From positions 1-21,574 of the IMG/VR virus record IMGVR_UViG_3300044756_000013: 21,574 nucleotides of DNA. One strand, given 5' to 3'. Origin of the DNA: a virus. A program made the position numbers and the translations under genes. Of the stretch, positions 4,137 to 21,574 are shown piece after piece. The notes beneath the pieces were generated by a model that was not told the DNA's origin, searched no databases, and saw only the letters and a list, made by a program, of their open reading frames with translations. How positions within the stretch are numbered: position 1 is the stretch's first letter; every line of letters begins with the position of its first letter.

Positions 4137-5515
4137 GCTTCGTCGTCCATCGCGTCAGCAAAAGCGCCGCGCGCTACACCGACGCGGGGGGTAGGGAGAA
4201 ATGCGGATACTGCCGCTTCTTCGTCGCCCCTCGCGCCTGCGGCAAGGTCATCGGCCCGGTCAGTCCCCAGGGCTGGTGTAAATACTTCTCCCGTCAGGTG
4301 TCTCAACAGGGCAGTACGCCGATCAGTGGACCGTCCGGTCCTCCCGGCATGACGCTCGATCTCAACTTCATGACGCCCGGCGGCCTGCCCGCCGGTGTCA
4401 CGTTCGCCCGCGCGAGCACCGCGACGTACACCGACGCATCCGGGGTGATCCAGACGGCGGCGGCCAACGCGCCACGCTGGGATTACGCGGGCGGCGTTCT
4501 GAAGGGGCTGCTGATCGAGGAGGCGAGAACCAACCTCTGCTTACAGAGTGCCGACTTTTCCGCGTGGTCGCCGGTTGGGGCCATCGCGGCCGCTCCTGTT
4601 GTAACGCTCAATCAGGTCACCGCGCCCGACGGGACGCTGACGGCTGACAGGATCGTGCTTCCGGCGGTGTCGGGCGCGGGCGCGCGCAGTATCCTGTATC
4701 AGCAGATCACCACCAGCGGCGTGAATACCTTCAGCGTGTGGTTGCGCGGTGCTGTTGGCGGCGAACAAACCTTCGTTAGTTTCGCCGGCGGTCCCGCCGG
4801 TCAGGTTCGTGTCACGCTGACAACGGCGTGGCAACGGTTCACGCTGACGACGCCGTCGTTGTCTTCGTCCGGTTGGTATTTCGTGCTTGGGACCGACATG
4901 TTCGACCCCGGTCAGAGCGCCACCCCGGCGGGCACCATTTATGCCTGGGGCGCGCAGGTCGAGCCGGGTGCGTTCGCGACCTCCTATATTCCCACGACAT
5001 CGGCGAGCGCGACACGGGCGCTCGATCTCGCGACGACACCAACCACCGGCTGGTTGAACGCGACAACCGGATCGATGTTCGTGTCCTTCGACATCGCCGC
5101 GTGGCCGCCGAGTGGCGCCAACTCGAACAGTTGCCTGTTCACATTGGACAACGGGGCGGGGAACCGCTCCAACACCATCGACCTGTTCATGTTCCTTAAT
5201 GGTGGGAACTATATGTTGCCGGCTTACACGGCGTTCGTATCGAGCGCGAATGTCGGCGGGTTCAACGGTAACAACAACCCGAGCGGGCCGGGGACCATCG
5301 ACAAAATCGTGGTTTCCTGGGCGGTTGGATCACTCAGGATGAGCGAGAACGGACAGGCCGTGCAAACCGGAACCGTGTCCAGTTTGCCGACGCTGAGCCG
5401 TCTGGTGCTGGGTCATGGATATAACGGTCCCGACACGTTGTATGGCCATCTCAAACAGGTGGGATACTGGCCTCGTGTTCTCTCCGACGCCGAGATGCAG
5501 CAGGTGACGACATAA
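4133..5515 (+). CDS. Fibre or spike protein with an N-terminal four-cysteine motif and lectin-like domains
   Basis: This 460-residue protein starts at ATG 4133, in an ATGA overlap with the adaptor gene. Residues 24-49 carry C-x2-C-x8-C-x12-C, with C24, C27, C36 and C49 and a closing GWCKYF. The pattern resembles high-potential iron-sulfur proteins (HiPIP), with a shorter middle spacer. From about residue 73 there is a segment with FARASTATYTDASGVIQ and GLLIEEARTNL, a frequent module in phage fibre and head-spike proteins. A beta-sandwich, carbohydrate-binding-like region then runs to about residue 280. The C-terminal part ends with LKQVGYWPRVLSDAEMQ, typical of LamG/concanavalin-like domains. 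It probably binds host surface glycans. Whether the Cys motif binds a metal or an iron-sulfur cluster is inference. Confidence 0.72.
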   Translation: MSFVVHRVSKSAARYTDAGGREKCGYCRFFVAPRACGKVIGPVSPQGWCKYFSRQVSQQGSTPISGPSGPPGMTLDLNFMTPGGLPAGVTFARASTATYTDASGVIQTAAANAPRWDYAGGVLKGLLIEEARTNLCLQSADFSAWSPVGAIAAAPVVTLNQVTAPDGTLTADRIVLPAVSGAGARSILYQQITTSGVNTFSVWLRGAVGGEQTFVSFAGGPAGQVRVTLTTAWQRFTLTTPSLSSSGWYFVLGTDMFDPGQSATPAGTIYAWGAQVEPGAFATSYIPTTSASATRALDLATTPTTGWLNATTGSMFVSFDIAAWPPSGANSNSCLFTLDNGAGNRSNTIDLFMFLNGGNYMLPAYTAFVSSANVGGFNGNNNPSGPGTIDKIVVSWAVGSLRMSENGQAVQTGTVSSLPTLSRLVLGHGYNGPDTLYGHLKQVGYWPRVLSDAEMQQVTT

Positions 5516-7209
5516 TGGGATTCCCCTGGCAAAACGGTGACCCGCTGCTCGCCGCCGATCTCAACGAGGCCATCGCCAACGCGGGCGGCGGCGGCGGGGG
5601 CGGTGAGAGTGCTTCGACGCCCGCCACCATCAACGTCCTGACTTTCGGTGCGAAGGGCGACGGCACGACGGACGATACCGACGCCATCAACGCGGCGTTC
5701 GACCGGGTGCGCGAGTTACAGACCGTGACCGATCATGCCATGTGGCATGTGACGTTCCCGGCGGGCCGTTATGTCGTCACCGGGCCGATCAACATGACCG
5801 GCCTCATCGGCCAGGGCAGCGGCGTCATTGACGGGTGCGGCTCCGAGATATGGCTCAAAGGCGCGACCGCCGTCCTCGATCTGTTAACCAGCCGCTGGCT
5901 GATCATCAAGGATTTACAGGTCTACGGCGATCCGGTGCTGACGCCGAAGATCGGCATACAGATCGGACGCATCCATTCGCAGTCGGCTGACTTCATCACG
6001 ATGTCGCACGTCAATATGTGGGGCAGCTACACGCTCACGGCGTTCTATAATTTCGCATCAGAGACGTTCACCGCTTACGCCTGCACGTTCGACAACATGG
6101 CGGCGGCGGCGACCTCGTGGTGTGCGATCATGGACGGCATCAACCACTTCAATGCGTCATCCACGTTCGTCTCGGTCATAGCGCCGGTCGATAGCACGCA
6201 AAGCAACAACTCGTCGGTGTTCGATTGTTGCACGTTCCAGGTCGCGGGCGGCGGCGGCAATGTGTGGATGTCGTTTTGCAGTGGCCATTCGTATCGGCAT
6301 TGTTACGCGTCCAACTTCACCGGTTCGCCGTTCGTGATTTATCAACCCCCCGGCATCGGCGGGCCAGCGGTTGGGATGCTGGAGATCGATTGCCATTGCG
6401 AGACATCTGGCCTGACGCACATGGTGATGTTCAGTGGCCCGCCCGGTGTCACGTTCGCGTATGCGATTGGGCTGGCACTGACCGATTACGATATGCAGGC
6501 CCAGGTGTCCGTGTTGCACATCGACCCGGCGTCCGCTGTTACCGGTGTTGAACTAAGAGAGGCGAGGTTCCGGCTGGGTGGTCCGTGTCCCGCTCTGGTG
6601 GACAACCCGGCGAAGTGGGCCATCCAGTGCATCGGCGCCGCCTTGCCGCAGGGGATGTGGAACAACCCATCGGGCTGGTCTGGCCCGGTCTATGTCCTGG
6701 GCGATGCGCGCCTGTCGTTCACCGTCGCTCAGGGCTGGCCGTCATCGGCACGACCAACCGCGCGACCTGGCGCGTTTGGTTACGCGACTGACACCAACAC
6801 ATTTGAATGGCTCGATGCCACGGGGTGGCATTCGTGGGTCTCGACACTCGGCGGCTCGATCAGCGGCGGTCTGGCGGTCGGCAACACCGCCTCGCTCAAT
6901 GGTGGCGTGGTGATCCGAAACGGCAACAACGTGGATGGATCAATGCTGGTTGATGGCAACTGGGGCATTCTGATGCGTGGATACCCTGGAAGCAGTTCCG
7001 ACATTGGGTTGCAGGCCAGCGACGGCTCCATTCTCGTGCGTGTCAGGAGCGGTGGCCGGGTAGAGTTATCAGGCAACATTGGATTTAACGGCGCCAACGC
7101 GATAGCGAAGCCGGCCGTCACCGGCTCGCGCGCGGGCAACGCGGCACTGGCATCGCTGCTCACCGCGCTGGCGAGCTACGGCCTGATCACCGACAGCAGC
7201 ACGGCATGA
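5515..7209 (+). CDS. Beta-helix tailspike, pectate-lyase-like
   Basis: This 564-residue protein starts at ATG 5515, overlapping the previous stop by one base. Residues 1-22 (WQNGDPLLAADLNEAI) form a short anchor segment, followed by a run of seven Gly. Then comes NVLTFGAKGDGTTDDTDAIN, the hallmark start of the pectate-lyase/rhamnogalacturonase-like right-handed beta-helix family (PF12708). Irregular beta-helix-like repeats continue to about residue 350. The later part includes a segment with AFGYATDTNTFEWLDATGWHSW and a C-terminal Gly/Ser-rich repeat region that may act in trimerisation. Such spikes usually bind and often cut host capsule or exopolysaccharide. Catalytic residues cannot be assigned from sequence alone. 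Confidence 0.85.
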   Translation: MGFPWQNGDPLLAADLNEAIANAGGGGGGGESASTPATINVLTFGAKGDGTTDDTDAINAAFDRVRELQTVTDHAMWHVTFPAGRYVVTGPINMTGLIGQGSGVIDGCGSEIWLKGATAVLDLLTSRWLIIKDLQVYGDPVLTPKIGIQIGRIHSQSADFITMSHVNMWGSYTLTAFYNFASETFTAYACTFDNMAAAATSWCAIMDGINHFNASSTFVSVIAPVDSTQSNNSSVFDCCTFQVAGGGGNVWMSFCSGHSYRHCYASNFTGSPFVIYQPPGIGGPAVGMLEIDCHCETSGLTHMVMFSGPPGVTFAYAIGLALTDYDMQAQVSVLHIDPASAVTGVELREARFRLGGPCPALVDNPAKWAIQCIGAALPQGMWNNPSGWSGPVYVLGDARLSFTVAQGWPSSARPTARPGAFGYATDTNTFEWLDATGWHSWVSTLGGSISGGLAVGNTASLNGGVVIRNGNNVDGSMLVDGNWGILMRGYPGSSSDIGLQASDGSILVRVRSGGRVELSGNIGFNGANAIAKPAVTGSRAGNAALASLLTALASYGLITDSSTA

Positions 7210-7298: not shown

Positions 7299-7639
7299 CC
7301 GCCTCCATCACGCCGGGACACTTCGGCCTCCTTGGCCTTGGTTCGATCGACGGGCGGCCGGGGAGGTTCACCGCCAGGGGCTACGACATCCCCGGCGTCA
7401 CCGGTCTGGCCATGGGCCGGTTCGGTCCCAACGGTTATGGCGCCGACACATCGATGTGGCAGTCGCCGGGAGACTGTGAGACGGGCATTTGGACAACCCC
7501 CGTCATGCCGCCGCCGGCTTATCGTAAATCCCGCCCCTATGGCGTCGGCGCCTACGGCGTCGGCCCCTACGAGCGTTACGCCGGCGCCTGGGCGAAGCCC
7601 ACGACATGCTCTGTCGGAACCTGGGCGAGGGCGGCATGA
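7295..7639 (+). CDS. Gly/Tyr-rich small tail-region protein
   Basis: This 114-residue protein starts at ATG 7295 behind an ideal GGAGG site. The sequence is rich in Gly, Pro and Tyr and has the repeated element YGVGAYGVGPYERY near residue 90. A similar Gly/Tyr element (YGRGDYGEETYG) occurs in the nozzle protein encoded at 10457-12004. Three Cys residues are present (one in GDCETG, one in TTCSVG at the C-terminus and none in a clear metal-site pattern, so at least two are certain). There is no signal peptide or membrane segment. Its TGA overlaps the next start (ATGA, 7636-7639). It is probably a small structural or fibre-attachment protein. The family is not recognised. Confidence 0.65.
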   Translation: MTASITPGHFGLLGLGSIDGRPGRFTARGYDIPGVTGLAMGRFGPNGYGADTSMWQSPGDCETGIWTTPVMPPPAYRKSRPYGVGAYGVGPYERYAGAWAKPTTCSVGTWARAA

Positions 7640-9054
7640 GTTACTCGATCACACCCAACCTCGGATTGAAGCGTCCGACCCCAGGCGCCGACGACGACCA
7701 GTGGGGAACGCACTGGAATGAGAACGCGACGATCCTGGACACGGCTTTTGGATCGGCATCGGTCGTCAACGTCCTTGATCATGGGGCCAAGGGTGACGGC
7801 GTGACCGACGACACGGCGGCGATCCAGGCGGCTCTCGGCCAGCATCTTCGTGCGATGATCTACATTCCGGTGTCACCATCGGGACAGCCGTATCTCATTG
7901 GCGCGCCGGGCCTGAATATCTACGGGCAGACCACCGTCGTAATCGATGGAAACCTGAAACTCGCCAATGGCGCGAACGGCGGCGTGCTCCACATTCCGGC
8001 CGGGTCCAGTCAGATATCGATCGGAGGACAGGGCACGATCGACGCCAACGGCGCGAACCAGACAACTGTTCCGGGGTTCGCGTTGTATGCCGATCAGTCC
8101 AGCCACATCAGAATATCGGGGATCACCTTACAGAACGCGCTCAACTGGAATTTGAATATCGTTCAATGTTCCAACGTCCGCGTCGATGGCGTCAAAATGC
8201 TGAACTGCGGCAACTCAAACGAGTTCGCGCAAGGGTCGGATGATTGCTGGCTGACGAACTGCCTGATTGATGGCGTGAACGACCTGGGATTCGCGTTCTA
8301 TGGCGCCGTCACGAACAGTGGCGCCATCGGCAACACCATACGCAACATCGGTTTCGCCGTCGGGTTCGCCACGCCGACAACCGCGCTGAATGCCATCGGC
8401 GCGTTCTCCGACGCGGACCAGCCGGGCGGCTGCAAGAATATCGTCATTTCCGACAACATCATTTCCAATTGTTCGGGCGGCGCGGTTTACAGTGACGTTT
8501 TCTCCGGCCCCAATAACGAAAGTATCCTGGTCTCCGGCAACATCAGCCGGGGCAACGGGAAGTGGAGCGGAATACAAACACTATCGGACTTTGGTTGCGA
8601 TCATTGTGTAGACGTGACGTTTATCGGTAATCTGTCGTATAACTTTGGTTCGGCGACGATTACGGCGCGAGGGCTCTACGCGAGCAGCAACGCCAGGGGT
8701 GTCAACTTCACGGGCAATCAGGTGGTCAACGTCGGGCAGGGGACGACGACCGGGGTTGGGTTGTATGTGAACTCGACCAACCTTTTATTCGCCGGGTCGA
8801 ACTATTTCTATGACGAGCCGGACGACCCAACGCCGAACTCCATGGCGTTTTGTATCAGCGGCAGCGCCGGACTTCGTAATGCCTATGTTGGCAATTTCTG
8901 CGATACCGCGCCGGTCAACATCACATTCCAGCCAGACACCGCGTTCAGCAACGCCATCAAGGGGGTGCTGTCCATGCGGAACCTGCCCACGGCATCGACC
9001 GGCCTGACGGCGGGCGACGTGTGGCGTAATGGCACCGTGTTGAACAGCGTTTAG
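7636..9054 (+). CDS. Second beta-helix tailspike, pectate-lyase-like
   Basis: This 472-residue protein starts at ATG 7636, with GAGGG at 7627-7631 and an ATGA overlap. An in-frame ATG at 7606 lies inside the previous gene and adds non-conserved residues. The N-terminal 35 residues (ITPNLGLKRPTPGADDDQWG then NENATILD) are an anchor module also seen in the collar fibre at 9380. The spike domain begins with VNVLDHGAKGDGVTDDTAAI, the PF12708-type signature, and is followed by many short beta-helix turns with Asn/Gly-rich loops such as ISDNIISNCSGG and VSGNISRGNGKWSG. The C-terminus is short (TGLTAGDVWRNGTVLNSV). It likely recognises or degrades a host polysaccharide. It differs from the spike at 5515 beyond the shared entry motif, suggesting different glycan targets. 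Confidence 0.86.
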   Translation: MSYSITPNLGLKRPTPGADDDQWGTHWNENATILDTAFGSASVVNVLDHGAKGDGVTDDTAAIQAALGQHLRAMIYIPVSPSGQPYLIGAPGLNIYGQTTVVIDGNLKLANGANGGVLHIPAGSSQISIGGQGTIDANGANQTTVPGFALYADQSSHIRISGITLQNALNWNLNIVQCSNVRVDGVKMLNCGNSNEFAQGSDDCWLTNCLIDGVNDLGFAFYGAVTNSGAIGNTIRNIGFAVGFATPTTALNAIGAFSDADQPGGCKNIVISDNIISNCSGGAVYSDVFSGPNNESILVSGNISRGNGKWSGIQTLSDFGCDHCVDVTFIGNLSYNFGSATITARGLYASSNARGVNFTGNQVVNVGQGTTTGVGLYVNSTNLLFAGSNYFYDEPDDPTPNSMAFCISGSAGLRNAYVGNFCDTAPVNITFQPDTAFSNAIKGVLSMRNLPTASTGLTAGDVWRNGTVLNSV

Positions 9055-14605: not shown

Positions 14606-16807
14606 ATGGCGGAAGAAACCACATCCACCGCGTCCGACCAGCAACTATCCCAGATCATCGCTCAACTGCTGGCGGGCAAGACGACGCAGCCCGCCGCCGA
14701 CCCCAATATCGGTCCCTCCACGATAGAAGGGCGCGGCCTGTTGTCGCGTGTCGGAGAGGCCCTTGGCGGCGGCGCTCAGTACGGCTCAACGCAAGAGCGT
14801 GAACAGGGCGGCCTGGCCGCCCTCGGCGCGATGGGCGCGCGGATGCTGCAAGGCTCCGACTGGTCCGTCATGCCACACTCTTTCGGATCGATCCTCGGCC
14901 AGGGTCTGGATGCCGCGCGCGGCAATCTCGGCCACACCCAGGCGGTCTCGGCGGCGCAACATTACGCGACGCAACAACTGGCGCATCAGCAGCAGGAAGA
15001 TCAGATCGCGCGACTGAAAGAGGCGCTGCCGTATCTGAAGCTGCAAGAAGACCGGGCCGCCGTGGCGCGGATGCGAGCGGCGGAGGGGACCAACACCAGC
15101 ATCGGCGCGGCGGGCGGGCCGCCAGACCCCAGTTCTCCCGCCGGGCAGGTCGCGACGCGCACCGCCGCGTTTTGGTCGAGCCAGGGCTACACACCGGAAC
15201 AGGTCGCCGGGATCATGGCCGGTGGCCCAGGCGCCGAGAGCAGTTTCGATCCCGGCGCCAAAGGCGACGGCGGCGACTCGCACGGACTCTACCAGCACCA
15301 GGGGCCACGCTGGGCGGAAATGGTCAAACGCTACGGTCCCAATCCGACCGAGGCGCAGCAGCATGAGTTCGCCGCCTGGGAGATATCTCCACAAGGCACG
15401 CACGCCGCCGTTGGCTCCGCGTTGAAACAGGCGAAGACGCCGCAAGAGGCGGCGGCGATATGGACCAAGGGGTTCGAGAGACCGAAGAACGCCGATGCCG
15501 CCGCCGCGGTGCGCGCGGGTGTCGCGGGCCGGTATCTGGGGTATGGCGCGGCGCCTCCAGGAAAGCGCGCCGACGCCACGCCAGAAGCCGGCACCGTCCA
15601 GGCAGCGGGTGATGCCGCGCCCACATCCGGTGTCACCCCGACTTTATCACCACAAGCGGCTGCCGCTTCCGCCGCTGATGTCGCCCAGATCGAGGCGGGT
15701 CGGGCCGAGGCCAGGACCAGCATGGCCGGAGGCCCAGGACAAGGGACCATGGTGGCGGGGCCGCCGGGAACAGTCCCGCCCGCGATGCCGCCCGCGCCAG
15801 AGTTCAAGATGCGGCCGCTGACGCCGACAGAGCAGGCGCAGACCAGCTACGCGCTCTCTCCCGATGTCGAGCGGACACTAAAAGTCATGTCGGCGGGGGC
15901 GCGTACGCCGGAGGACATGGTCAAGGTCCAGGACGCCCGGCGCGCCGCGCTGATGACACAGCGCGAGAAAGCCGACGCCGCGCGTCTGGCCATTGAAAAA
16001 GAAGCGCGTCAGGACTGGTTGAAGCAGAACAGCCCCGCGACGGATGCCCATCTCGCCGCCGCTGGCATGATGCGCGAACCCGGCGTGCAATACCTCGTGG
16101 ACAACGCCGGGAACATCACGACCAAGGCGATCCCGGTCGATCCACGCGCGCAGCAGGCGTCGACGGACGAGAACAAACGCTATCAGGAGAACTACGCCGG
16201 GCCTTACGACAAGATCCGCCCCGTGCATCAGCTGCTCGACCAGATGGAGGCTTTGGATAAGAAGATCAAATCCGACTCCTTTGGCGGCCGGGGGACTGTC
16301 GGATCGAACTTCGCCCAGAGCGTGCAGAAAACCCTGTCTGGCCTTGGTCTCGCCTCGGACGGCATCACCGATGCCACCGCCAACCAGGAGGCCTATAACG
16401 CTTTACACAACCAACTCGTTCTTAAACTGAAAGGACTGAGCGGCACCAGCCTCGGCAACATGTCGAATACCGATCTGGCGTTCCTGGATAATTCCGCTCC
16501 CGCCATGAACACGACACCGGAAGGGAGGATGCGAACCACCACCGCGATCCGCCAGATCCTGTCTTATCAAAGCAAACTCTATGACGCGGCGACGGATGTC
16601 ATTCACGATCCTTCCGGTGGATACACACTAAGAGACCTGAATAAACGCATCGCCGAGGTTCCTCCCGCCATTCCGACATTCCCCGGCAGGAATGCCTCGG
16701 CGGCGGATGCCAAAGCCTGGATGGAACACAACAAGCCCCGGCGCGGGACCGCCTACTACAATTCCAAGGGCGATCTGGCGATCTGGGGCGTGGACCCACT
16801 CGAATGA
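14606..16807 (+). CDS. Large virion protein with a phage lysozyme domain
   Basis: This 733-residue protein starts at ATG 14606. The N-terminal 160 residues are Ala/Gln-rich and helical. Residues 181-313 form a phage tail-type lysozyme domain (Phage_lysozyme2, PF18013): AFWSSQGYTPEQVAGIMAG, then AESSFDPGAKGDGGDSHGLY, EFAAWEI and WTKGFERP. E211 in AESSFDP is the candidate catalytic glutamate, and SHGLYQ is the usual following element. A Pro/Ala-rich linker (about 315-410) leads to helical regions, including DKIRPVHQLLDQMEALDKKI and TAIRQILSYQSKLYDAATDV, near the C-terminus. This combination is typical of ejected virion transglycosylases that open the peptidoglycan locally at infection. Its end overlaps the next start as ATGA (16804-16807). 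Confidence 0.8.
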   Translation: MAEETTSTASDQQLSQIIAQLLAGKTTQPAADPNIGPSTIEGRGLLSRVGEALGGGAQYGSTQEREQGGLAALGAMGARMLQGSDWSVMPHSFGSILGQGLDAARGNLGHTQAVSAAQHYATQQLAHQQQEDQIARLKEALPYLKLQEDRAAVARMRAAEGTNTSIGAAGGPPDPSSPAGQVATRTAAFWSSQGYTPEQVAGIMAGGPGAESSFDPGAKGDGGDSHGLYQHQGPRWAEMVKRYGPNPTEAQQHEFAAWEISPQGTHAAVGSALKQAKTPQEAAAIWTKGFERPKNADAAAAVRAGVAGRYLGYGAAPPGKRADATPEAGTVQAAGDAAPTSGVTPTLSPQAAAASAADVAQIEAGRAEARTSMAGGPGQGTMVAGPPGTVPPAMPPAPEFKMRPLTPTEQAQTSYALSPDVERTLKVMSAGARTPEDMVKVQDARRAALMTQREKADAARLAIEKEARQDWLKQNSPATDAHLAAAGMMREPGVQYLVDNAGNITTKAIPVDPRAQQASTDENKRYQENYAGPYDKIRPVHQLLDQMEALDKKIKSDSFGGRGTVGSNFAQSVQKTLSGLGLASDGITDATANQEAYNALHNQLVLKLKGLSGTSLGNMSNTDLAFLDNSAPAMNTTPEGRMRTTTAIRQILSYQSKLYDAATDVIHDPSGGYTLRDLNKRIAEVPPAIPTFPGRNASAADAKAWMEHNKPRRGTAYYNSKGDLAIWGVDPLE

Positions 16808-18546
16808 ACAGTGAAGAGTTCCGCGCCATCTACGGCCAGGACCCGGCGCCTGGCACGGTCTTCCCGGAAGACCAGCCGCGTCCCGCCCCCGCGCCGGGAT
16901 CGGGCGGCGGTGGCTCCGGCATGACGCCGGAAGAAGCCCGTGCGATCTACGGTGATCATCCCGCGCCCTCGTACGCCAGCCCATTGAAGGAGCCTTACCA
17001 GGGTGGCGGGCCGGTCGTACCGAACGCGCCAAAGTGGCGTGACCAAAGTGCTCTGGCGTTGGCGGAGAACGCCGCGATCCCGTTGAAGCTGCCCGATCTG
17101 CCAGGGCCGCTCGCGCGGATCAAGGACGCGGCGGTCGAAGGTTGGAACAGCTACAACCCGGAATCCCCGGCGGATGCCGAGATCAATCAGCGAACCGCGT
17201 ATGGGAAGTATCTGGTGCATCCGCTGGTTCAGGCCGCCAGCGTTCCCATTCGCGCGCTGGGTGCGCTGGGGCAAGGCCAGGGTCAGGCCGCGTATGAAGG
17301 TGGCAACGCCGTCGGCGGCCCGCGCCTGGGCCGTGACGCCTACATGCTCAATCAGGCGGTCACCGCGCTCCTGCCGCAGGGGCTGGCCGCCCGCGTCGGG
17401 ATGAAGCCAGACTTCACCCCCTCGACCCGTCCGTCCACCGTCATGGAGCGCATGGCGCCGCGACCGATCGAGGGGCAGACCAACCTTGGCCGGGCAATCG
17501 ACCTGCTGCGCCACGACACGGGGTGGGAGAAACCGGAGACGCCCGGCTATCTGCCGCCGGGGGTCAACCCCAACCAGCCAGGGTTCGTGCCGCCGGGGGC
17601 GGCGCTGCCGGTCACCGGGCCGCACCCGGCGGGCGTGCCCGACACGTTGCTTGGTAAAGCCCTGGAGCAACAGCGTCCGGCGCCAACCCCAACACCAGGA
17701 CCACCAGTGGCGCCGCCGGAGGCACTCGGGCCGGTGGAATACGCGAAGCAGATATCTTCCGGTTACTTCGATATCGCGCACAGAAACAACGCGACCTATT
17801 CACCTGAATACATGAACAAGGCATTCGATGTCGCCAAGGTCGTTCCAGGGCAGACTGAGCATGGAATAGTAACGGGCGGCCCGACCGCTGTGACGTCCCT
17901 GCTTGAGCGGTGGCAGGGCCTGCGGGACAAGCCCGCGACCCTACAGGGCGCGACGGAGATGGATCGCAGCCTCGCCGATCTGATCACTCAGGAATACGGC
18001 CCGAGGGGGATTTCCGGCGTTGGAAAACAACTCCAGGATATCCAACGTAATCTGCGCGACCATTTCGAGAACCCAGGCGCGGGGGACGTAACCGGCGGCA
18101 CCGCCGGTATCGAGGCGATGGCGCCCGCCCGCCGGGCGTGGTCCCAGGCGCTCAAGATGGACGATATCGTCCGGATGCAGGAGCGCGCCGACAGGACGCA
18201 GAACCCGACACAGTCCATCAAGACTCAGGCGAACACGCTGCTTTCCAGCCGCACCAAATCACGCGGCTGGTCTCCCGAGGAAAAAGCCGCGCTGGAACAT
18301 ATGGCCGAGCGAGGCACGACGGGAGATGCTCTGTACGGACTCGGTAGCCGCCTCCTGGGCAAGGCGGGCGCCGTCGTCGGTGCGTCGATAGGAGGCATCC
18401 CTGGGATGCTCGCCGGCTACACCATAGGGGAAGGTGGGTCAGCCCTTTCCAGAGCGGGAGCCAACCGCGCGGGAGCCAGACGGATTCAACAAATGTTGGA
18501 CACGCTGAAGCAGGGTCTTCCCCCGCCACCGCCAGGAACTCCCTAA
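16804..18546 (+). CDS. Large virion/ejection protein with glycine-rich membrane-like segment
   Basis: This 580-residue protein starts at ATG 16804 in an ATGA overlap. The N-terminus holds a duplicated element: EEFRAIYGQDPAPG (residues 4-17) and EEARAIYGDHPAPS (43-56), separated by a Pro/Gly linker. Residues 70-200 contain KDAAVEGWNSYNPESPADAE and a hydrophobic, Ala/Gly-rich stretch. The second half is mainly helical. Residues 517-546 form a glycine-rich hydrophobic segment (AGAVVGASIGGIPGMLAGYT) that could insert into a membrane, and the C-terminus is polyproline. It is the last plus-strand gene, and its TAA overlaps the stop of a minus-strand gene at 18543-18546. Position and composition suggest an internal or ejection protein. 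No catalytic motif is seen. Confidence 0.65.
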   Translation: MNSEEFRAIYGQDPAPGTVFPEDQPRPAPAPGSGGGGSGMTPEEARAIYGDHPAPSYASPLKEPYQGGGPVVPNAPKWRDQSALALAENAAIPLKLPDLPGPLARIKDAAVEGWNSYNPESPADAEINQRTAYGKYLVHPLVQAASVPIRALGALGQGQGQAAYEGGNAVGGPRLGRDAYMLNQAVTALLPQGLAARVGMKPDFTPSTRPSTVMERMAPRPIEGQTNLGRAIDLLRHDTGWEKPETPGYLPPGVNPNQPGFVPPGAALPVTGPHPAGVPDTLLGKALEQQRPAPTPTPGPPVAPPEALGPVEYAKQISSGYFDIAHRNNATYSPEYMNKAFDVAKVVPGQTEHGIVTGGPTAVTSLLERWQGLRDKPATLQGATEMDRSLADLITQEYGPRGISGVGKQLQDIQRNLRDHFENPGAGDVTGGTAGIEAMAPARRAWSQALKMDDIVRMQERADRTQNPTQSIKTQANTLLSSRTKSRGWSPEEKAALEHMAERGTTGDALYGLGSRLLGKAGAVVGASIGGIPGMLAGYTIGEGGSALSRAGANRAGARRIQQMLDTLKQGLPPPPPGTP

Positions 18547-18719
18547 CCGATCAACATCACCAGATATAGCAAGACGAATACCGCCGTGATCGGCAGCGCC
18601 ACCAGGAGCGCGAAGAAAGTCCGAACGGGATGCCCGCCTTCGGTCGCGGCGCCATGAATAATGCCGGCGCAGGCGAAGACGGCGAGCGTCATGAATCCAC
18701 CCACGATGCCGCCGATCAT
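18543..18719 (-). CDS. 58-residue membrane miniprotein, two predicted helices
   Basis: The start is ATG 18719, which overlaps the upstream TGA as ATGA (18719-18716). An upstream in-frame start at 18737 is possible but would overlap the previous gene. Residues about 4-24 (GIVGGFMTLAVFACAGIIHG) and 34-56 (TFFALLVALPITAVFVLLYL) form two hydrophobic helices with a short polar loop (ATEGGHPVR). The size and two-helix topology would fit a small holin or another inner-membrane protein. No endolysin gene is beside it, so the lysis role is only a possibility. Its TAG overlaps the stop of the convergent virion gene. Confidence 0.6.
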   Translation of the reverse strand: MIGGIVGGFMTLAVFACAGIIHGAATEGGHPVRTFFALLVALPITAVFVLLYLVMLIG

Positions 18720-18856
18720 AACGTCGCCACCAACCACAGAAACACACCGACCACGGCAGCGACAGCGGTGGCGTCGGTGGCCCAGCCCCAGGCGTCGCTC
18801 CAGAGCCGGGAGCGGCCGCGTCTGAAATGCCAGTGCCAGGCGAGGGAGTGGTTCAC
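18716..18856 (-). CDS. 46-residue Trp-rich membrane miniprotein
   Basis: GTG 18856 overlaps the preceding TGA as GTGA (18856-18853), and the TGA at 18718-18716 overlaps the next ATG. These two overlaps are the main support for this short gene. The product has a Trp/Arg/His-rich N-terminal half (HSLAWHWHFRRGRSRLW) and one predicted membrane helix at about residues 30-46 (TAVAAVVGVFLWLVATL). The charged N-terminus is probably cytoplasmic. With its two-helix neighbour it may form a small membrane-active pair. No family is recognised. Confidence 0.55.
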   Translation of the reverse strand: MNHSLAWHWHFRRGRSRLWSDAWGWATDATAVAAVVGVFLWLVATL

Positions 18857-19035
18857 GATCCCATCTCCGCGTTGAGCGTCTTCACAATCGCCGTTCCCGC
18901 CTTGAACTCCACTCCGTGCGCCAGGATCTCATCTGTGCATCCAGGTTCATGGCGGAGAATATCGTAAAGGCCGTCTTCGCTTTTGCCCGCTGTCCTGATG
19001 AGGCTGTAGCGGATCGTGGTTTCTGTCGTCTGCAT
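18853..19035 (-). CDS. 60-residue soluble protein, first gene of the minus-strand micro-operon
   Basis: The start is ATG 19035, chosen because it lies just after the terminator at 19056-19098 and has AAAAGG about 8 bases upstream. Longer in-frame starts up to 19221 would run back through the terminator and the PEP-CTERM gene. The product (TIRYSLIRTAGKSEDGLYDI, then ILRHEPGCTDEILAHG and FKAGTAIVKTLNAEMGS) looks like a small mixed alpha/beta protein with one Cys. It overlaps the next gene as GTGA. The family and function are unknown. The short spacing suggests that it is co-expressed with the two membrane miniproteins. Confidence 0.55.
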   Translation of the reverse strand: MQTTETTIRYSLIRTAGKSEDGLYDILRHEPGCTDEILAHGVEFKAGTAIVKTLNAEMGS

Positions 19036-19055: not shown

Positions 19056-19098
19056 TAAAAAGCCCCCCGGCCTCCCGTGCGATGGAAGAGGCCGAGGG
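19056..19098 (-). terminator. Intrinsic terminator after the PEP-CTERM genes
   Basis: Read on the minus strand, a GC-rich stem pairs GGCCTC (19093-19088) with GAGGCC (19074-19069). It can be extended by one more pair and, after a mismatch, by three G-C pairs. The stem is followed by a C and five T (19062-19057). It begins 9 bases beyond the stop of the PEP-CTERM gene and lies before the 60-residue gene. Confidence 0.75.
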
Positions 19099-19106
19099 TA
19101 GTATCG

Positions 19107-19757
19107 TCAGGCCCGGCGACGCCGCGCCGCCGCCAGACCAATCATTCCCATACCCAGCACCGCCAGTGAGGCGGGCTCCGGCACGTCCACATCGACCGGG
19201 TTGACCCCGCAACCGGGGCAATCACTGAACAACGTGCGCGCGATGGTGTAGTGCGACACCGCGTGCGTCGTTGATCCTCCAGGCAGGTCGAACGGCGGGT
19301 CCGTGAACGGGCTGGACCAAACGCCGTTGCTGAACAATTCATTGAACACGAACGCCGTCAGGTTGGTTTCATTGCCGTCCTTGAAGACAATCGCGTAGGC
19401 ATAGAGCGCGAAGTTCGCGTTGGCGATGGACCAGTTCCCGCTCAGCCGATCCCCGCCGGGAACAATCTGCGTCTGTCCGTTATCCAACCAGTTAACGCCA
19501 CCAAAGAAGCCAGCCGCGTTGATGTTGTTGATGCTGGCGACGTTGCTGTTGTTCTCTGGCGTGATGTACTGACATTTGCCCGAGACCGTGGCCGAGATCA
19601 GCCCCGTGCTGTCCTCGACCTTGGCGTTGGGCTCGGTGGTGAACCCTGGCTCGGGACACGTCACCAGGGCGGCGTGGACCGGAGCCGAGGGCAGGGTCGC
19701 CGAGACGAAAGCGCCCAGACCCCCGGCGAGCGCCGCGCGAAGGAGGAAACCGTTCAT
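19107..19757 (-). CDS. Secreted PEP-CTERM protein 1
   Basis: This 216-residue protein starts at ATG 19757, in an ATGA overlap with PEP-CTERM gene 2 and with GAGGGG 8 bases upstream. The in-frame GTG 19766 has no proper ribosome binding site. Residues 1-29 (MNGFLLRAALAGGLGAFVSA, ending in PVHA) are a signal peptide with likely cleavage after the HA. The mature part has Cys34, Cys62 and a C-x2-C pair at 180 and 183, and beta-rich Asn/Gly sequence. The C-terminus is a PEP-CTERM sorting tag: VPEPAS at 192-197, a hydrophobic helix and a final run of four Arg and Ala. In hosts with exosortase the tag directs cleavage and surface or matrix anchoring. The tag is unusual in phage. The function of the mature domain is unknown. 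Confidence 0.85.
   Translation of the reverse strand: MNGFLLRAALAGGLGAFVSATLPSAPVHAALVTCPEPGFTTEPNAKVEDSTGLISATVSGKCQYITPENNSNVASINNINAAGFFGGVNWLDNGQTQIVPGGDRLSGNWSIANANFALYAYAIVFKDGNETNLTAFVFNELFSNGVWSSPFTDPPFDLPGGSTTHAVSHYTIARTLFSDCPGCGVNPVDVDVPEPASLAVLGMGMIGLAAARRRRA
19153..19188. repeat. 36-base repeat encoding the PEP-CTERM tag, copy 1
   Basis: This segment codes for the VPEPASLAVLG core of PEP-CTERM protein 1. It matches the segment at 19824-19859 in 34 of 36 positions, both direct in orientation, while the rest of the two genes shows no clear similarity. Confidence 0.8.
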
Positions 19758-20482
19758 GCGGCGCACCCCTCGACCGTAGCGCGGCGGCGCCGGCGCGTCA
19801 GCCCCAGGCCCACCAGACCAGCGCCCAGCACCGCCAGCGAGGCGGGCTCGGGCACGTCCTCACGGGTCACGATCGCCTGGCTACGACCGACCAGTGAGCC
19901 GCCCGCCGTCAAAAACCCGGTGGTCCCCAGGCTCATGGAGTAAGCGCCGCCGCCGACGAACGGACCATTGAAGTCCTCATTGAAGCTGTCGGTATCGCCC
20001 GCCGCGGTCACCGCCAATGTGGCAAGCAGCGCACCGGGAAGGTCCGTTGGCGTGTCCGCGCCCTGATCGTTCAGCACGTCGCCCCAAAATGTCAGCGTCG
20101 CGGACGACCCGTTGGCGGTCTGGAACGTCCCCGATCCCGACGCCGAGAACGCCAGCACCGGACCCAAAAAATCGGTGCCGCCGATCGCCACCGTGATCGG
20201 CACCGTGCCGCCAGTCAAATTGTTGATCTGGAAGGTGGAGGTGTTGAGGCTGTTGACCGCGCCGATGACCTGGGTCTGGGCGCTGCCCAGGAACTGCACG
20301 CCACCGATGGTCTGATCGGCGATGGCGAGGATGCCAGGCGTGAGGTTGGTGTCGCATGCCGCCTGATCCTGACAGGCGAACAGCGTGCCGTTGATGTCGG
20401 CGCTGATCTGCAACACCGCCGATGCCGGCGAGGCGAGGCCGATGGCGCAAAGCGCCGTGGCCGCGTAAAGTAACTTTCTCAT
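19754..20482 (-). CDS. Secreted PEP-CTERM protein 2
   Basis: This 242-residue protein starts at ATG 20482 behind an excellent AAGGAGA site (20496-20490, 7-base spacer). Residues 1-22 (MRKLLYAATALCAIGLASPA then SA) form a clean signal peptide with cleavage after ASA. The mature part is beta-rich and low in charge, with Cys37 and Cys43 close together, and GTVPITVAIGGTDFLGPVL and SATLTFWGDVLNDQG segments as seen in many uncharacterised PEP-CTERM proteins. VPEPAS lies at 210-215, followed by a hydrophobic helix (216-229) and five Arg (230-234). Unusually, seven or eight further residues (ATVEGCAA) follow the Arg run, perhaps because the gene reads through to the ATGA overlap with the next one. 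It is likely exported and processed by a host exosortase. Confidence 0.87.
   Translation of the reverse strand: MRKLLYAATALCAIGLASPASAVLQISADINGTLFACQDQAACDTNLTPGILAIADQTIGGVQFLGSAQTQVIGAVNSLNTSTFQINNLTGGTVPITVAIGGTDFLGPVLAFSASGSGTFQTANGSSATLTFWGDVLNDQGADTPTDLPGALLATLAVTAAGDTDSFNEDFNGPFVGGGAYSMSLGTTGFLTAGGSLVGRSQAIVTREDVPEPASLAVLGAGLVGLGLTRRRRRATVEGCAA
19824..19859. repeat. 36-base repeat encoding the PEP-CTERM tag, copy 2
   Basis: This is the second copy of the tag-coding segment, in PEP-CTERM protein 2, with two mismatches to copy 1 at 19153-19188. Both substitutions are silent for the VPEPASLAVLG core. Confidence 0.8.
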
Positions 20483-20586
20483 GTTTAAGTCTCCTTGGTG
20501 TTCGATAAAGTTAAACAGTGTTTTCCGTCTCGTCCCGGCGAAACGTCACGAACACATTCTTGGGACGCAACATAAAACTCAATGAC
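20483..20586 (-). other. Gap upstream of the PEP-CTERM genes
   Basis: This 104-base non-coding gap is more AT-rich than its surroundings near the PEP-CTERM start (TGTTTAACTTTATCG on the minus strand). It contains the AAGGAGA site and a 6-base inverted repeat, CGTCCC 20531-20536 and GGGACG 20562-20567. A dedicated promoter for the PEP-CTERM genes would fit here, but no convincing -35/-10 pair is seen and no terminator follows the preceding gene. Confidence 0.4.
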
Positions 20587-20763
20587 TTATCGGTCGAAAG
20601 TCCAGCGTGGGGTTCGACCTGTAAAATCCGCCGACACCTTGTCGGGAGACAGCAACGCCGCCACGGCTTCGCGGAGTTGTTCGTTCTGGCGCGTCAGGTC
20701 GGCGACCGTTCGTTCCAGCTCCTCGATCTGGCGGCGCAGCGCGTTGATCAGATCCGGGACCAT
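20587..20763 (-). CDS. 58-residue coiled-coil protein after the DNA polymerase
   Basis: The start is ATG 20763, which overlaps the polymerase stop as TGATG. The in-frame start at 20826 would run inside the polymerase gene and is rejected. Residues 4-38 form a strong heptad pattern (LINALRRQIEELERTVADLT, continuing RQNEQLREAVAALL), so a dimeric or trimeric coiled coil is likely. The C-terminal 20 residues (SADFTGRTPRWTFDR) are polar. It may bind the polymerase or another replication protein, or be a small regulator. Only the coupling to the polymerase supports this. Confidence 0.6.
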   Translation of the reverse strand: MVPDLINALRRQIEELERTVADLTRQNEQLREAVAALLSPDKVSADFTGRTPRWTFDR

Positions 20764-21574
20764 CACGATTTCATATACCTCGGCCCGCGCGACCCCTCTG
20801 CTCGCAGCGGAAAACCCTCGGCCCAATCAGGCAACTCCGACATGATCGCGCACATGCGATCCACACTCCCAAACCCCACGGGAGGCTCACAAACGACCTC
20901 GTCATGTATGAGCGTGAGCGGGCGGTATCCCTCCTGTTCGAGGCGCAACGCGGCATGGACAAGGAGATCCCGGCACAGGCCCTGCACGGCGTTTTCCGTC
21001 AGCCGGCCCCCATACGTTTGTTGCCTCTCCCACCGTTTTGTTAGCGAATTGACCGCCATATACGAGACACAATCGTTGCCAAAACGACCCTGCTCGATCA
21101 ACGGCTGGCTGTACCAAAGGTAACGCCCGCTGGGTAACCGCATCCTCAACCACTTTCGGTCCTGCCTGAACCTGATGCGCCCGCCCGCCACCGCCGTCGC
21201 CTGACCGGGATGACGCACGGCGTCGATCGCCGCCTGGTTCATGTCGCGCCATAGCAGGGGGATCTGGGCATACGTCTCGCGGTACACGCCCACGGCGCGT
21301 TCCGCCTCTTCCGGCGCGAGGATGGTACCGACCTGGGCGATGCAGGTCTCGCGGAACTTGTACCACCCCATCTGATAGCCGCACCCGAGAATCAGGGTTT
21401 TCCCGACGTGCCTGGCGGTGCTGTCCTTCCTGATCGTGGCGGGATCGATCCCGTAAACGCGGCCGCCCATTTCCTCATAGATCTTCCGCTTCGCGCGGAA
21501 CGCCTCGACCAGATCATCCTGCCCCGCCAGCCACGCCACGCCCACCGCCTCGACCGAGGCGAAATCACCCGCCG
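20763..21574 (-). CDS. Family A DNA polymerase, C-terminal part
   Basis: The gene runs off the right edge, and 269 C-terminal residues are visible. Motif A is at the edge: GDFASVEAVGVAWLAGQ, where the Asp binds catalytic metal. Motif B follows as RHVGKTLILGCGYQMG (visible residues 54-69), with the Arg and Lys of the fingers helix. The motif ENAVQGLCRDLL leads to motif C, TLIHDEVV (HDE at about 223-225). These three motifs define the polymerase domain of family A (PF00476), the class that includes T7 gp5. The gene copies the phage genome. The exonuclease domain, if any, lies outside the window. All visible catalytic residues are intact. The orientation is opposite to that of the virion genes. 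Confidence 0.92.
   Translation of the reverse strand, partial: AGDFASVEAVGVAWLAGQDDLVEAFRAKRKIYEEMGGRVYGIDPATIRKDSTARHVGKTLILGCGYQMGWYKFRETCIAQVGTILAPEEAERAVGVYRETYAQIPLLWRDMNQAAIDAVRHPGQATAVAGGRIRFRQDRKWLRMRLPSGRYLWYSQPLIEQGRFGNDCVSYMAVNSLTKRWERQQTYGGRLTENAVQGLCRDLLVHAALRLEQEGYRPLTLIHDEVVCEPPVGFGSVDRMCAIMSELPDWAEGFPLRAEGSRGPRYMKS

Follow-up and report, generated by a model that had tools for sequence, protein, structure and literature searches.

Exosortase sorting of PEP-CTERM proteins (EpsH; PF07589, TIGR02595) is associated with exopolysaccharide (EPS) loci, and its bacterial substrates are mostly encoded in single-gene operons (Haft 2006, PMC1569441); in the available parts of two further reports PEP-CTERM proteins are linked with floc formation (PMC9850573, PMC9012009). 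The two phage genes considered here, A and B, resemble this system in their putative signal peptide, PEP motif, hydrophobic helix and Arg cluster, in mature domains that are otherwise unrelated, and in an expected dependence on exosortase, but they differ from the bacterial members in that the phage set comes from records in which no exosortase was found and consists of tandem, overlapping genes in a slot. Superinfection-exclusion and surface-conversion proteins of phages (e.g. the lipoprotein Llp of T5, Cor, and SieA of P22, the last in PMC10883804) make use of a lipobox, secretion or membrane helices, and we know of none with an exosortase tag. A and B are like Llp, Cor and SieA in being phage-made, dispensable and variable, and are predicted to be placed in the envelope as well. 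Phage 'morons' are accessory genes in variable slots, and the A/B locus is likewise a slot that may be filled or empty among the core genes and that closes with a terminator-like element of its own, but here the mature domain is exchanged inside a constant frame of signal peptide and tag. In the literature searched, phage-encoded PEP-CTERM proteins are not described, and papers that pair PEP-CTERM with phage are, as far as their available text goes, bacterial genomics or Microcystis expression studies. The A/B set is new as phage-borne, exchangeable cargo (PEP-CTERM sorting itself being known), and the phenomenon may have escaped notice because it resides in uncultured phages.

The DNA examined (the window) is a viral stretch of 21,574 nt, positions 1-21,574 of IMG/VR record IMGVR_UViG_3300044756_000013. 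It is a 21.6 kb fragment, with the DNA polymerase A gene incomplete at one end of the contig. The features around the gene pair are the following.

18853..19035 (-): small conserved gene MQTTETTIRY... (the TETTIRY gene), right border of the slot, from comparison with relatives
19057..19098 (-): terminator-like hairpin and T-run 3' of gene B (fold -26.1 kcal/mol, z -3.3; not reported by a terminator scan that covered loops of 3-8 only)
19107..19757 (-): gene B, family IV secreted protein, 216 aa from ATG, with PF07589/TIGR02595 matches and a 73% identical homologue in L006
19116..19187 (-): PEP-CTERM tag of B (VPEPASLAVLGMGMIGLAAARRRR), PF07589
19671..19757 (-): signal peptide of B, about 29 aa, whose remnant is the scar in single-gene phages, read from the sequence and DNA comparison
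19754..20482 (-): gene A, family I secreted protein, 242 aa (signal peptide, beta-sandwich mature domain and PEP-CTERM), with PF07589/TIGR02595 matches and an AF2 model
19787..19858 (-): PEP-CTERM tag of A (VPEPASLAVLGAGLVGLGLTRRRRR), PF07589
20417..20482 (-): signal peptide of A, about 22 aa, with an AxA site, a conserved module, read from the sequence and DNA conservation
20491..20496 (-): AAGGAG ribosome-binding site of A, 8 nt before the ATG, read from the sequence
20587..20763 (-): small coiled-coil gene forming the left border of the slot, on its polymerase side, from the ORF list and comparison with relatives
20763..21574 (-): DNA polymerase family A, incomplete at the contig end (PHROG E 3e-52)

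The sequence-only reading had seen two secreted proteins with complete PEP-CTERM tags, coupled by an ATGA overlap and lying on the strand of the DNA polymerase within a phage segment, and the tags, the overlap and the phage setting were borne out. PF07589 gave exactly two matches over the whole window, one at each tag (E 9e-10 for B and 7e-9 for A), both above the cut-off, and no match in 14 control genomes; whole-protein scores of the two tagged proteins were 30.1 and 27.1 bits for Pfam (cut-off 20.7), and 21.9 and 24.5 bits for TIGR02595 (cut-off 16). Against the named NCBIfam PEP-CTERM families (PepA, THxN, EDSAP-1 and others) A reached at best 34 and B 32 bits, compared to cut-offs of 50-125 for the matched whole-protein models, and the NCBIfam matches of both lay mostly over the tag. 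By their sequence, A and B are PEP-CTERM proteins. Their N-termini (with the break between MRKLLYAATALCAIGLASPASA and VLQ in A, and between ...PSAPVHA and ALV in B) have, by eye, the n/h/c pattern with AxA of Sec signal peptides. The TGA of A and the ATG of B, both on the minus strand, overlap as ATGA (an upstream GTG at 19766 would give B 219 aa), and no consensus sigma-70 promoter was found upstream of A. Both genes are under constraint, i.e. purifying selection, with dN/dS values of 0.20-0.35 for A against its relatives, 0.23 for B, and 0.08-0.35 across every pair tested.

The remainder of the contig carries phage head and tail genes (according to PHROGs a major head protein with E 3e-67, virion proteins and a tape-measure match), and the nearest annotated phages are distant, with at most 55% identity for the polymerase and at most 39% for the head protein among the matches listed. 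The large virion protein at 14606-16807 (+) has a best PHROG (tape measure) that spans a stretch resembling a lytic transglycosylase domain. At 5515-7209 and 7606-9054 (+) lie two different spike-like proteins of the pectate-lyase/rhamnogalacturonase fold (PF12708), a pair that fits an exopolysaccharide-coated host. The phage is apparently a virulent tailed phage. Temperate lysogenic conversion is disfavoured by a search of 37 phage records, fragments among them, that was aimed at tyrosine integrases and found none.

Fifteen relatives of the polymerase were fetched from IMG/VR, and in nine of these the coiled-coil gene and the TETTIRY gene have a tagged gene between them. L017 and L019 have the gene order of the window (polymerase, coiled-coil gene, tagged gene, TETTIRY gene, and then the 16804, tape-measure, 12927, 12637 and 10457 homologues), and the DNA of L018, starting at about -290, aligns with the window to either side of gene A. 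In L015, L016 and L029, whose polymerases (91-92% identical) are among the most similar, the border genes adjoin and the slot is without a tagged gene. The slot, which lies between the DNA-replication and the structural genes, is a presence/absence accessory slot between conserved neighbours in close relatives and, since it is empty in some of them, the function of the tagged genes must be dispensable. Extra sequence was found inside the slot of L020, L022 and L026; that of L020 includes another gene, upstream of the tagged one (L020:3901-5061 (+), a 386-aa protein that looks repetitive and beta-helix-like by eye). After the single tagged gene of L017, L018 and L020 there is a degenerate copy of the signal-peptide region of window B, and from this scar it follows that a second gene was lost there. 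Outside the slot, the DNA polymerase gene of L028 contains, in another frame, an ORF resembling an HNH endonuclease (L028:1953-2609 (+)) at the point where the polymerase match stops, possibly an intron or intein.

The mature domain is also exchanged within the genes. Between L021 and L017, L023 or L024 the DNA is 87-92% identical through the signal peptide, the mature part is without a match, and the match resumes from the tag (88.6% over -16 to 62, resuming from nt 564, against L017; 92.3% over -119 to 62 against L024). L021 and L056 have a mature family in common at 71% but not the signal peptide, and A of L056 and window A have only signal peptide and tag in common. Judged by these alignments, the DNA of signal peptide and tag is conserved around a mature domain that is replaced as a whole. 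Two-gene phages combine the families in several ways, namely I+IV (window), I+III (L003), I+V (L004/L005), II+IV (L006) and II+III (L056), and tandem tagged genes also occur in L097, L100, L105-L107, L119-L121, L131, L145, L199 and L242 (leaving out regular-expression false positives, e.g. L139, L154 and L187). Three tagged secreted-protein genes stand in a row at L058:2880-5041 (-), near a DNA methyltransferase gene. The initial view of the feature as tagged cargo stands, and the roles that it offered (a block to superinfection, an altered biofilm or an effect on progeny release) are candidates; but it took the genes as two isolated ones and missed both the exchangeable slot and the mostly phage-borne families.

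Family I was found in 85 stretches of viral contigs, family II in 163 and family III in 256, counted as stretches and not de-duplicated by virus, the viral status being that of the IMG/VR labels with a PHROGs check on some contigs. That check placed a portal (L078, L138), terminase (L054, L131), virion protein (L119), tape measure (L086, L129) or tail fibre (L170) near tagged genes. The viral scan for family IV matched only the L006 contig, and an annotated phage collection (50,697 records) held no match to gene A or to five representatives of families I to III; a tblastn of the tag against phage records also gave no match, which is uninformative because the tag is of low complexity and was filtered. 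The bacterial searches covered families I and II. Using narrow patterns, a scan of 84,980 bacterial and archaeal genomes returned four family II loci, all in Acetobacteraceae (Roseococcus, Rhodopila) and next to genes that look, by eye, like an ordinary chromosomal setting, and no match to a narrow, window-like family I alignment. Among a capped number of scored candidates, the family I profile matched 0 of 200 Acetobacteraceae, 0 of 385 class and 0 of 398 phylum genomes, while matching all 21 viral records known to contain family I (the positive control); with the family II profile, matches came from 3 of the 200 Acetobacteraceae genomes. These searches make a strong, though not absolute, case that families I and II are near absent from the sampled bacteria. 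The Roseococcus family II relatives at L091:5854-6690 and L092:5239-6678 carry a tag of the VPAPAGLAFLG type instead of PEP, and the protein neighbouring the latter ends in the same type.

Every distinct complete protein of family I (n=62) and family II (n=70) keeps a PEP-type tag, in some cases as an xEP variant (e.g. AEPAT, TEPAA) and in nine of family I in the PEPxxWA form. In family III (n=66) PEP tags number 18 and VPLPA-like ones 13 (by an ad hoc regular expression), and further ones include VPIPAALPMF and VPGPIVGAGLPG. Tags of the VPLPA-CTERM (TIGR03370) and PEPxxWA-CTERM (NF035944) types are carried by some phage proteins of families III and I, class names that are provisional since all matches to these models in the scanned proteins were below the curated cut-offs. 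Some family III tags match no NCBIfam model, as is the case in L301 and L303, and VPGPIVGAGLPG...RRRR-type tails (L301:2968-3720, L303:1604-2449, L313:2842-3669, L299:2878-3612) are possibly an undescribed sorting signal. If cargo is matched to different hosts, a single mature domain would be expected to turn up with several sorting tags, as is the case here.

As for the sorting enzyme, a search of 36 phage records turned up no exosortase, while one is present in all three searched Acetobacteraceae genomes with a family II relative and in 75 of 200 genomes of that family. The family II relatives in Roseococcus and Rhodopila hint at Acetobacteraceae as the likely host family. The proposed reliance on the sorting enzyme of the host is in line with these results. 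Hosts lacking any exosortase had been named as an observation that would speak against it; here the candidate host family often has the enzyme, and the host itself is only hinted at.

The AF2 model of A (mean pLDDT 87.8) has an all-beta mature domain and a C-terminal helix. Among solved structures it is closest to Bdellovibrio Bd1399 (Z 9.4), followed by a Bacteroides glycan-binding protein (8.2), CBM61 (8.1) and phage tailspike domains (7.8, as with CBM16 at 7.0 a range below 8 that may reflect a common arrangement). With fold matches that are middling at best, and beta-sandwiches being common, the glycan-binding case is weak, and such a role of A is a lead only. The model of B, built from two sequences, was unusable (mean pLDDT 31.5).

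Given the tags, the gene overlap, the slot, the swapping, the purifying selection, the scarcity of families I and II in sampled bacteria, and phage records in which neither exosortase nor tyrosine integrase was found, it is very likely that A and B are phage-encoded exosortase cargo. That the host exosortase handles them as exchangeable cargo, and that they come to be displayed on cells infected by an apparently virulent phage, is less certain and on balance probable; hundreds of related phage genes with the middle swapped between a constant signal and tag make it likely that viruses display exchangeable proteins via the sorting machine of the host. Export, processing by exosortase, surface display and purpose are what we infer from this. 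A and B would be exported via the Sec-type signal peptide, after which the host exosortase would cleave off the tag, and the protein would be set free or anchored at the outer surface or in the matrix of the infected cell. The slot diversifies by recombination, with new mature domains entering between an unchanged signal peptide and tag, and it can lose one of its genes or both. The tag would be matched to the sorting enzyme of each host, the same mature families occurring elsewhere with other tags. The purpose that we predict, tentatively and knowing that it may well be another, is superinfection exclusion, which is favoured on three grounds: it is the exposed part that is exchanged, the phages can do without the genes, and their lifestyle appears to be virulent. 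The displayed proteins would shield or occupy surface glycans or receptors against competing phages, for which an exchangeable specificity would pay.

The main rival, although we consider it rather unlikely, is that the proteins join the exopolysaccharide matrix and alter the floc or biofilm of the infected cell, such that progeny stay near hosts or escape. The association of PEP-CTERM proteins with EPS loci (PMC1569441) and, in the available parts of the reports, with floc formation (PMC9850573, PMC9012009) would agree with this, as would the two spike-like proteins of the window phage, which fit an EPS-coated host, and the CBM-like fold of A, but wholesale swapping of mature domains is less expected for a generic matrix role. 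It is improbable that the cargo acts as a sponge, i.e. that abundant phage substrate saturates the host exosortase and strips host PEP-CTERM proteins from the surface with the mature domain being secondary: a tag in every complete family I and II protein, the strong ribosome-binding site and the paired cargo would suit such a role, for which the tag alone would suffice, whereas the mature domains are under purifying selection and belong to specific, recurring families. More improbable still is an accessory role in lysis, as envelope proteins of a late lysis block beside the adjoining small two-helix membrane protein (18543-18737), given that the slot is empty in close relatives, no lysis family was matched and the tags are sorting signals. 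Misbinned or chimeric bacterial DNA, and hence no phage feature at all, is hardly credible, even with PEP-CTERM being bacterial only in the literature searched and the window being a fragment, since a chimeric join near 19100-20590, which the sequence-only reading had named as its refutation, is excluded by independent contigs that share the slot, the gene order on both sides (L017/L019), the flanking DNA (L018) and structural genes, which refutes contamination for the window group, and portal, terminase, virion, tape-measure or tail proteins lie near tagged genes elsewhere.

Superinfection exclusion by exchangeable display would also have a wider form, which is possible and somewhat more speculative than the exclusion itself: tailed phages of several lineages would practise modular surface display, shuffling virus-borne domains between a constant export signal and a host-matched sorting tag, and the resulting exchangeable coat would set which phages are excluded. 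The function of PEP-CTERM proteins is largely open, and the phage-borne families may provide small substrates for its study. If the reading is true, these are phage families kept under selection and swapped like specificity modules, through which viruses exploit the exosortase route.
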